Shown here: in pieces, positions 310 to 6,015 of the stretch
Numbering within the stretch: position 1 is the first letter of the stretch
Layout of the letters: each line of letters starts with the position of its first letter
DNA from: Chitinimonas sp. BJB300
Lineage (GTDB): Bacteria; Pseudomonadota; Gammaproteobacteria; Burkholderiales; Chitinimonadaceae
DNA: 36,611 nt
Assembly (NCBI RefSeq): GCF_002735695.1
Contig: NZ_PDZH01000041.1
Span: forward strand, 1-36,611
Reading direction: 5' to 3'
The notes under the pieces: generated by a model
The model's input: only the letters and a program-made list of their open reading frames with translations
Told to the model about the DNA's origin: nothing
Databases searched by the model: none
Translations under genes and position numbers: made by a program

Positions 310-702
310 CTAGATGTCGTCCTTCCCCGTTGACGTGACGCGCGGTTGTAGCTCGCAGCGTTTGGCTTGGCAGCGTACCGCCGGCTTGGGGAGGATTGAG
401 CAGGTCGACATCTCACCTCGGGCGGTGACTTCCGCTTGGCGTGCTGTGTGATGTTGTTCGGCCAGGGACTTGATCGTTGCTTCATCGCCATCTCGGCTGG
501 ACCAGGGCAGGTAGCTTTCCGGCCCACCGCACGCGCGTGCGCCCACACCGATTACGTGGCAATCGTCATTGGTCTCGCAACTTGCAGCGCCAATGGCGGT
601 TTGCAGTGCCTGCAGCGTATTTGCGACGTCGATTCTGGTTGCAGCGGCAGCAGGGAGGCTAAAGGCGAGGGTGAGCGCCAGACAGCGTAGGGCAGGGGGC
701 AT
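310..702 (-). CDS. Small secreted Cys-containing protein, unknown function
   Basis: The ORF is open further upstream, but the ATG at 702 is preceded by a GGAG ribosome-binding site about 8 nt away and starts a clear signal peptide (MPPALRCLALTLAFSLPAAAA, cleavage after Ala), so 702 is chosen. The mature part is about 110 residues with paired cysteines: CETNDDC, ACGGP and, near the end, STC, RC and KRC. This suggests a disulfide-stabilised periplasmic or exported protein. The ACGGP-x-SYLPWS stretch recalls small conserved hypothetical proteins of proteobacteria, but no function can be given. It is transcribed divergently from nrdA, 615 bp away. Confidence 0.72.
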   Translation of the reverse strand: MPPALRCLALTLAFSLPAAAATRIDVANTLQALQTAIGAASCETNDDCHVIGVGARACGGPESYLPWSSRDGDEATIKSLAEQHHTARQAEVTARGEMSTCSILPKPAVRCQAKRCELQPRVTSTGKDDI

Positions 703-812: not shown

Positions 813-840
813 CTACATATTGTCCACCGATTTATCCACA
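813..840 (+). promoter_or_regulatory. Upstream copy of the nrdA control motif: NrdR-box core plus DnaA box
   Basis: CTACATATTG (813-822) is identical to the core of the NrdR box at 1009-1018, and a perfect DnaA box TTATCCACA follows at 832-840. The same pair of motifs, in the same order, occurs again nearer nrdA (1009-1018 and 1045-1053). No second NrdR core lies 31-32 bp away, so this copy may be a remnant or a weaker site. The ACA/TGT flanks of the full NrdR consensus are missing here. Confidence 0.5.
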
Positions 841-954
841 AGCTGCGGGTAACGGGTTACGAGTGGTTTTGGGTGATTTTTCCGTTTGATTTTGGGCAGG
901 GCAACCGGCCCGTCTTTTGATAGCCAGCATCTACGTTAGTTGAGCAGTTCAAAT

Positions 955-983
955 TTGCCAGAGAAGGCATCAACTACTACACT
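955..983 (+). promoter_or_regulatory. Probable sigma70 promoter of nrdA
   Basis: TTGCCA (955-960) and TACACT (978-983) are separated by 17 bp and resemble -35 and -10 hexamers. Transcription would start near 990, leaving a leader of about 330 nt before the nrdA ATG at 1318. The -10 lies inside NrdR box 1, the usual arrangement for repression by NrdR. Confidence 0.5.
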
Positions 984-989
984 TAGTAG
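974..989 (+). promoter_or_regulatory. NrdR box 1
   Basis: CTACTACACTTAGTAG sits within a perfect inverted repeat, ACTACTA (973-979) and TAGTAGT (984-990) around 4 nt. Its centre CTACACTTAG fits the palindromic NrdR core CwAtATaTwG at 7 of 10 positions. It overlaps the putative -10. Box 2 lies 32 bp downstream, about three helical turns, which is the spacing known for paired NrdR boxes. Confidence 0.75.
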
Positions 990-1005
990 TAAGTACGGTT
1001 AAAAA

Positions 1006-1021
1006 ACACTACATATTGTGT
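1006..1021 (+). promoter_or_regulatory. NrdR box 2
   Basis: ACACTACATATTGTGT matches the published consensus acaCwAtATaTwGtgt at 15 of 16 positions. Together with box 1, 32 bp upstream, it forms the tandem operator bound by NrdR, the zinc-ribbon/ATP-cone repressor of ribonucleotide reductase genes. No nrdR gene is in the window. Confidence 0.88.
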
Positions 1022-1053
1022 TTTTCCACATTTTATACACCGAATTATCCACA
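1022..1053 (+). promoter_or_regulatory. Cluster of DnaA boxes upstream of nrdA
   Basis: TTTTCCACA (1022-1030) fits TTWTNCACA, TTATACACC (1033-1041) fits at 8 of 9, and TTATCCACA (1045-1053) is the perfect high-affinity DnaA box. All are on the + strand, directly after NrdR box 2. DnaA control of nrdAB is established in E. coli, where DnaA boxes lie at the nrdA promoter, so replication-linked regulation is a reasonable inference here. An origin of replication is not indicated, because there is no dnaA/dnaN and no long AT-rich stretch. Confidence 0.65.
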
Positions 1054-1158
1054 CCCCGTTGCGGGTCTGCCGCGATGTGACTTTAAGTGTGTGCATACCG
1101 AGTTTTGGTGCGGTGGTCTGCCGGCATCCATCACCCAGCCTGAACAGGCAGCTACTCA

Positions 1159-1317: not shown

Positions 1318-4227
<2,910 letters not shown>

Positions 4228-4905: not shown

Positions 4906-6015
4906 ATGCTGTCTTGGGAAGAAACCTCTGCTGCACAAACCGCAGCCAAGCCGGCTACTAACCCACAGGCCCCTTCCAGTGGGCAAGCCAGCCCCACCGG
5001 TCGCGTCAGCGCCGTGGACAAGCGCATCATCAATGGTGGTACCGACGTCAACCAGTTGGTCCCCTTCAAATACAAATGGGCTTGGGAGAAATACCTCGCT
5101 ACCTGCGCCAACCACTGGATGCCGCAGGAAATCAACATGCAGCGCGATATCGAGCTGTGGAAGAACCCCAACGGCCTGAGCGAAGACGAGCGCCGTCTGG
5201 TCAAGCGCAACCTGGGCTTCTTTGTCACGGCCGACAGCTTGGCGGCCAACAACATCGTGCTGGGCACCTATCGCCACATCACTGCGCCCGAATGCCGCCA
5301 GTTCCTGCTACGTCAGGCTTTCGAAGAAGCCATCCATACCCACGCCTACCAATACATCGTGGAAAGCCTGGGTTTGGATGAGGCCGAAATCTTCAACGCC
5401 TATCACGAGATCAAGTCCATTCGTGACAAGGACGACTTCCTGATCCCGTTTATTGACGCGTTGACTAACCCCACCTTCAAGACGGGCACCCCCGAGACCG
5501 ACCAGCAACTGCTGAAGTCGCTTATCGTGTTCGCCTGCATCATGGAAGGCATGTTCTTCTACGTCGGCTTCGTGCAAATCCTGGCGCTGGGCCGCCAGAA
5601 CAAGATGACCGGTGCCGCCGAGCAGTACCAGTACATCCTGCGCGATGAGTCGATGCACTGTAACTTCGGCATCGACCTCATCAACACCGTGAAGATGGAA
5701 AACCCACATCTGTGGACCGACGCCTTCAAGGCCGAGCTGACCGGCTTGTTCCAAAAAGCGGTGGATCTGGAATACGCCTACGCTGAAGACACCATGCCAC
5801 GAGGTGTGCTGGGCCTGAATTCCGGCATGTTCAAGGACTACCTGCGCTTCATCTGCAACCGCCGTATGCAGCAGATTGGGCTAGAACCGATGTTCCCTGG
5901 TGCAACCAATCCGTTCCCGTGGATGAGTGAGATGATCGACTTGAAGAAAGAGAAAAATTTCTTCGAGACACGGGTGATTGAATATCAGAGTGGTGGCGCG
6001 TTGAGCTGGGACTGA
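4906..6015 (+). CDS. nrdB: Ribonucleoside-diphosphate reductase beta subunit (class I)
   Basis: This is the radical-generating small subunit, 369 residues; the ATG is preceded by AGGAGA (4895-4900). Metal ligands are in place: D110 (FFVTADSL), E141 and H144 (EEAIHTH), E213 (IMEG), E247 and H250 (DESMH). The radical tyrosine is Y122 in [10 protein letters not shown]. From memory the overall sequence resembles the Chlamydia trachomatis R2 clade (KYKWAWE near the start; NPFPWMSE and [12 protein letters not shown] at the end). In chlamydial class Ic proteins the tyrosine is Phe and the Asp ligand is Glu; here both are canonical, so a di-iron or Tyr-radical enzyme is expected. MLSWEE at the start also resembles Pseudomonas NrdB. 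It lies 678 bp after nrdA and has a strong terminator behind it. Confidence 0.97.

Follow-up and report, generated by a model that had tools for sequence, protein, structure and literature searches.

NrdR boxes and an adjoining row of predicted DnaA boxes at the nrdA promoter of Chitinimonas and other betaproteobacteria

Which signals does the control region of nrdA read in Chitinimonas sp. BJB300, and does its layout bring NrdR and DnaA together? The region lies in a whole contig of 36,611 nucleotides, hereafter the window, in which NrdR boxes and DnaA-like boxes stand side by side upstream of the gene. The tie between dNTP supply and replication initiation has been little tested outside E. 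coli; for Bacillus subtilis and Caulobacter, control of reductase genes by DnaA is proposed, without detailed analysis, in the accessible part of PMC8203912. Joint control of nrdA by NrdR and DnaA is already known in E. coli, and what is new here is the geometry. We propose that the nrdA promoter is probably under two linked controls, NrdR and DnaA, with DnaA holding transcription down.

The features of the locus are collected in Table 1. Both proteins are encoded in the window's genome: NrdR matches TIGR00244 with 185.1 bits and DnaA matches TIGR00362 with 587.2 bits, each over the cut-off. The closest named NrdA is that of Chitinilyticum piscinae (77%), followed by that of Crenobacter (76%), and in the NrdA tree the window's family, f1, shares a clade with Chitinibacteraceae, Neisseriaceae and Chromobacteriaceae rows. 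The ATP-cone matches in NrdA fall in two stretches. A divergent open reading frame (310-702, minus strand) has no Pfam match at E 0.01, and its start looks signal-peptide-like by eye.

Table 1. Coordinates of genes and predicted control elements at the nrdA locus of the window.
Feature	Position	Strand	Details
NrdR-like CTACATATTG copy	813-822	+	11/16 to NrdR consensus
Distal DnaA double box	820-840	+	weaker TTGTCCACC 820-828, 3-bp gap, consensus TTATCCACA 832-840
Sigma-70 type promoter TTGCCA-17-TACACT	955-983	+	TTGCCA 955-960, 17 bp, TACACT 978-983
NrdR box 1, CTACTACACTTAGTAG	974-989	.	covers the -10; weak match in the window
NrdR box 2, ACACTACATATTGTGT	1006-1021	.	15/16 consensus positions
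Triple DnaA-box row, TTTTCCACA-2 bp-TTATACACC-3 bp-TTATCCACA	1022-1053	+	32 bp in all
DnaA boxes of the row		+	TTTTCCACA 1022-1030; TTATACACC 1033-1041; TTATCCACA 1045-1053
Conserved covarying stem-loop of the nrdA leader	1045-1096	+	last DnaA box contributes its 3' half to the outer helix
nrdA, class I ribonucleotide reductase large subunit with ATP-cone	1318-4227	+	PF02867, PF00317, PF03477
nrdB, ribonucleotide reductase small subunit	4906-6015	+	PF00268

The first-pass annotation had described a pair of NrdR boxes 32 bp apart, the first covering the -10 of a promoter with a 17-bp spacer, and three DnaA boxes within 32 bp, and all of these were found where it had placed them. The NrdR boxes are palindromes of 16 bp each, whose starts are 32 bp apart. 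It had also described the DnaA boxes as overlapping the NrdR boxes, a point that needs correction, as in the window box 2 ends at 1021 and the row begins at 1022, adjoining it without overlap. The second promoter that it had considered possible at 813-840 was rejected: the scan of 700-1320 gives one promoter-like site, that at 955-983, and shuffled sequences average 0.7. The promoter layout is common to the window and its family in the alignment. Judging from the -10, transcription would start near 990, which would place the DnaA row in the predicted leader, at about +30 to +65 of the transcript.

These elements exceed what chance would give. NrdR box 2 is the only strict NrdR pattern match in the window's genome, both strands considered, and the window (36.6 kb, both strands) holds three TTWTCCACA sites, all of them in the nrdA control region. 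The double-box pattern, in which two 9-mers are separated by 2 or 3 bp, matches in the window at 1022-1040, 1033-1052 and 820-839. In 915,275 bases of simulated first-order sequence, neither a double box whose 9-mers both reach the strength used nor an NrdR box matching at 15/16 positions was present.

Comparison with related nrdA promoters, which the first-pass annotation had called for as a check, was performed on 190 upstream regions: 10 from the window's family, 80 from named betaproteobacteria, and 100 from the same order. An NrdR pair with a score of at least 22 is present in 184 of the 190, whereas reversed and simulated regions reach that score in 2 of 190 each; 172 of the 184 pairs have a spacing of 31 or 32 bp. 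With a laxer threshold of 20, the pair is found in 188 of 190 regions, versus 29 reversed and 20 simulated ones; these 188 regions are the basis of the counts of -10 elements, DnaA rows and offsets given below. The -10 sits inside NrdR box 1 and reads TAGAAT in 70 of the 188, while a TTG lies 16 or 17 bp 5' of it in 117, each other spacer from 10 to 29 accounting for 0-11 regions. The accessible parts of PMC2892513, PMC12176259 and PMC12051234 describe NrdR-controlled promoters as covered by a pair of 16-bp palindromes at a distance of about 31-32 bp. In comparison with these, the pair of the window is ordinary, at the usual three-turn spacing; its box 1 is a weak match.

The DnaA row is tied to this pair. 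Strict TTWTNCACA sites from -400 to +400 number 79 in the 188 regions, of which 50 are within 60 bp after NrdR box 2 (29 on the plus strand and 21 on the minus strand); 10 further sites lie in the 20 bp preceding that stretch, where they are able to overlap the NrdR box. Rows were scored as chains of 9-mers with 2-bp or 3-bp gaps, and with weights and a cut-off of 12 that were chosen after the sequences had been viewed, 52 of 188 regions reach a score of at least 12, versus 3 of 188 when reversed (52 versus 3 of 184 at the NrdR-pair threshold of 22). Some of these 52 are made up of weak boxes, and lower cut-offs leave a smaller excess, 64 versus 31 of 188 at 8 and 120 versus 113 at 4.

The register of the boxes is conserved, and in the window the row proceeds in one-turn steps. 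Same-strand 9-mers in offsets 0-59 after NrdR box 2 number 101, versus 24 for reversed 9-mers, and peak at offsets 0, 10-11, 22-23 and 34-35, with 20, 17, 22 and 9 boxes, respectively. Another 7 boxes are at offset -1, a one-base overlap with NrdR box 2, as in family genomes G005, G003, G006 and G001, where the first DnaA box overlaps the last base of the NrdR box. The row meets NrdR box 2 within one base both in the window's family and in several others.

Rows scoring at least 12 are present in 10/10 loci of f1, 5/5 fetched loci of f5 and 5/5 of f27, in two of three f14 loci (not G112) and one of two f51 loci (not G101), and also at Chitinilyticum, Crenobacter and Vogesella loci, the last two having rows of four boxes when weak ones are counted. 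In f32 the row starts about 10 bp later. Loci of the Paraburkholderia type carry a row on the other strand, with four boxes in L034, L041, L043 and L044 and three in L050, at 4-5 bp from NrdR box 2, so exact abutment is not universal. When mapped on a tree built from 88 NrdA proteins, the same-strand row is present in 12 of the 13 rows of one clade (SH-aLRT 100) and, outside that clade, in two tree rows, L056 and L073; the opposite-strand row is found in 5 of 6 rows of the Paraburkholderia clade and in one Thiobacillus. The labels require six changes on the tree, versus a shuffled mean of 19.1, with none of 200 shuffles as low. This distribution points to several origins of the row, part of which losses could explain. 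That separate lineages have DnaA rows beside NrdR box 2, on one strand or the other, suggests that the link has been selected for repeatedly. Most sampled Burkholderia, Cupriavidus, Comamonadaceae and Oxalobacteraceae loci have no DnaA row, so nrdA control can do without it. Joint control by NrdR and DnaA, the central claim of the first-pass annotation, thus appears well supported by the conservation of pairs (184/190) and rows (52/188).

In the ten family genomes, same-strand TTWTNCACA pairs within 25 bp give 9 matches, 7 of them at nrdA, and the reversed pattern gives 1. The double-box pattern gives 36 matches, 17 of which are at nrdA in 8 of the 10 genomes (G007 and G009 have no match to it there), and 4 when reversed. 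In the window's own genome, its matches are the three at nrdA and three copies of one sequence on contigs C10, C81 and C141, possibly a mobile element. The sequence TTATCCACA also occurs in the dnaA upstream regions of the five genus members examined, which supports its identity as a DnaA box in them. The replication origin oriC adjoins dnaA, and the possibility that the cluster is part of oriC was rejected because of the distance between nrdA and dnaA: in G001 they are at 0.92 Mb and 2.46 Mb, respectively, of one 5.29-Mb contig, in G002 dnaA opens a 5.65-Mb contig that has nrdA at 3.54 Mb, and in the window's genome (G000) they are on different contigs.

The E. coli nrdAB promoter is controlled by DnaA and NrdR, and Fis, IciA and H-NS have also been reported to act on it. 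Like the window, it combines NrdR boxes with a DnaA double box at a class I reductase promoter. The E. coli K-12 double box, TTATCCACA-3-TTATGCACT, is at -162/-150 from the start codon, upstream of NrdR boxes at -93 and -62, whereas in the window the order is reversed and the row comes directly after NrdR box 2. The window has no DnaA double box close upstream of its promoter, the mark of the E. coli type, and, unlike E. coli nrdAB, it has a distal DnaA box. The leader stem-loop described below may be a further difference from E. coli nrdAB. The accessible part of PMC11317965 gives, from E. coli DnaA ChIP-seq, a rule of 9-mers with 2-bp or 3-bp gaps, with nrdA among the targets; in comparison with the E. 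coli double-box targets (oriC, polA, purH, DARS1/2 and nrdA), the window presents the same gaps and three boxes. Nothing found in the sources covered, mostly outside the subscription journals, describes a leader stem-loop at nrdA or DnaA boxes lined up behind an NrdR pair. The reversed order yields a testable prediction of the sign of DnaA control.

With the first DnaA box starting right where NrdR box 2 ends, NrdR and DnaA would have to be either in contact or mutually exclusive. A row placed 3' of the predicted start can hardly be expected to bring in RNA polymerase from upstream, which favours repression or an interplay with NrdR. At high dATP, a NrdR tetramer would bridge both boxes and shut the promoter. 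Just before initiation, with ATP-DnaA at a high level, DnaA would assemble cooperatively on the row and keep transcription low, perhaps aided by a loop to the distal box. After initiation, a drop in ATP-DnaA would open nrdA while replication consumes dNTPs, until the build-up of dATP allows NrdR to close it again. According to the accessible part of PMC8203912, high DnaA-ATP represses E. coli nrdAB and activation occurs at low levels, and the portion available of PMC2500167 reports that nrdAB mRNA goes up in a dnaA46 mutant, and in a dnaC mutant too. Since activation by DnaA is also reported and nrdAB rises in the dnaC mutant as well, the sign of control given here is a guess based on position. 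As to NrdR, the part of PMC12051234 available states that binding is strongest when the centres of its boxes are separated by a whole number of turns. A bolder version, which we put forward tentatively and hold to be considerably less probable than dual control itself, would have the NrdR tetramer, the DnaA row and the distal box on one helix face, where an ATP-DnaA loop together with the row competes or locks with NrdR; dATP and the initiation state would be read at one joint, built independently in several betaproteobacterial lineages and on either strand.

The sign could also be the opposite, with DnaA on the first box displacing NrdR from box 2 and thereby raising nrdA at initiation. We regard this as a possibility to be taken seriously, yet clearly the less likely direction. 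The tight junction speaks for it (20 of the boxes counted above start immediately behind NrdR box 2 and 7 share one base with it), as do the need of both boxes for high-affinity NrdR binding (PMC12051234, accessible part) and the ability of E. coli DnaA to activate nrdAB (PMC8203912, likewise). However, in Paraburkholderia the rows are on the other strand with 4-5 bp in between, and a DnaA row in the transcribed leader would be expected to block RNA polymerase. It is improbable that the cluster serves mainly to titrate DnaA or exchange its nucleotide, as datA and DARS do, and lies at nrdA by chance. Such sites combine DnaA boxes with IHF and/or Fis sites. By the patterns used, the nrdA cluster is among the densest DnaA-box places of these genomes, but in several families it keeps a set place relative to NrdR box 2, apparently through separate origins. 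Hardly credible, finally, is a chance AT-rich leader with DnaA-like boxes beside an ordinary NrdR promoter: although AT-rich leaders do yield some TTNTNCACN matches, and no excess remains at the loosest row threshold, the strict sites are concentrated in 60 bp over 188 regions, the register is conserved, and the 0.9 Mb of simulated sequence contains no double box.

The region 1045-1096 could instead act mainly as RNA, its stem-loop setting mRNA stability or elongation and the last DnaA box being kept partly for pairing, which we consider rather unlikely. The stem-loop is common to 9 of the 10 family genomes, from the last DnaA box onward; the 5' strand of its outer helix is the CACA end of that box, and its inner hairpin has 7 bp. 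In favour of a role as RNA, 8 of 15 pairs change on both sides in eight sequences, versus a shuffled mean of 4.1 with none of 500 as high, and slid structures have at most 3 such pairs. In the outer helix, 4 of 8 pairs are weak or vary with mispairs, and most of the covariation signal is carried by the inner helix. Furthermore, with 150 of more than 1000 first-look candidates per genome scored, the stem-loop model matches 9 of the 10 family genomes once each, at nrdA, and G009 not at all; sequences from eight of the nine matched genomes went into building it, and the other, G006, is nearly the same as G003. Against this reading, other families carry the DnaA row without the stem-loop, which therefore fails to explain the row; no intrinsic terminator was found in the leader, and the window's copy alone folds no better than shuffled sequences (z -0.93). 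In the 35 of 180 non-family loci searched, the best match to the stem-loop has an E of 0.7. Rfam has no family for it above threshold, and the single Rfam match (E 3.5, on the other strand and far under the gathering score) was rejected.

For the preferred reading, repression by DnaA from the row, the distal box may offer a second contact. A copy of TTATCCACA is found upstream in 6 of 7 genus members, G004 being the one without a distal box, at distances to the last proximal box of 213, 213, 202, 202, 203 and 213 bp, two classes that differ by about one helical turn. With the base composition of the window, this 9-mer would turn up in 250 bp with a probability of about 0.0007, and the DNA between distal box and promoter has diverged, with 42-58% identity in five of the six (gapped alignments). 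In the window, 114 bp separate the end of the distal box from the -35. Given seven genomes, one without the box and two almost identical, the phasing rests on about two length changes; the short-distance classes of G003/G006 and of G002 may be separate one-turn losses, the forks of the tree being unsettled. In these few genomes, the conserved distal box and its spacing suggest a DNA loop.

The loop, which the first-pass annotation had raised as a possibility, thus gains some support, while its duplicated module stands in part. The copies at 813-840 exist: CTACATATTG recurs at 1009-1018, 196 bp from the upstream copy, and the two TTATCCACA sites are 213 bp apart. The DnaA-like half is the one kept in 6 of 7 genus members, whereas CTACATATTG upstream of NrdR box 2 is found in the window only, not in the nine other family members. 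A duplicated NrdR/DnaA module was therefore rejected, and the upstream CTACATATTG copy is probably a product of chance or recent.

In the wider class, an NrdR box followed by a DnaA box within 30 bp is found in 14 of 369 genomes, versus 1 match of the reversed pattern, and the opposite order, with the DnaA box first, in 11 of 369, with no reversed one among the matches listed. Of the 13 NrdR-then-DnaA matches other than the window's, 6 have an NrdA relative in the next ~2 kb, 5 of them at 22-25% identity, and 7 have none, so this pairing of boxes is widespread but does not always precede an NrdA gene. By eye, one of these seven has a class II reductase-like gene, and three, L230, L233 and L236, have the NrdR and DnaA boxes before NrdA-less stretches with HtrA-like genes further downstream. 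In L240 and L241, an NrdR box is followed by the gapless 9-mers TTTTCCACA-GATTCCACA-TTTTCCACA, before a distant NrdA relative.
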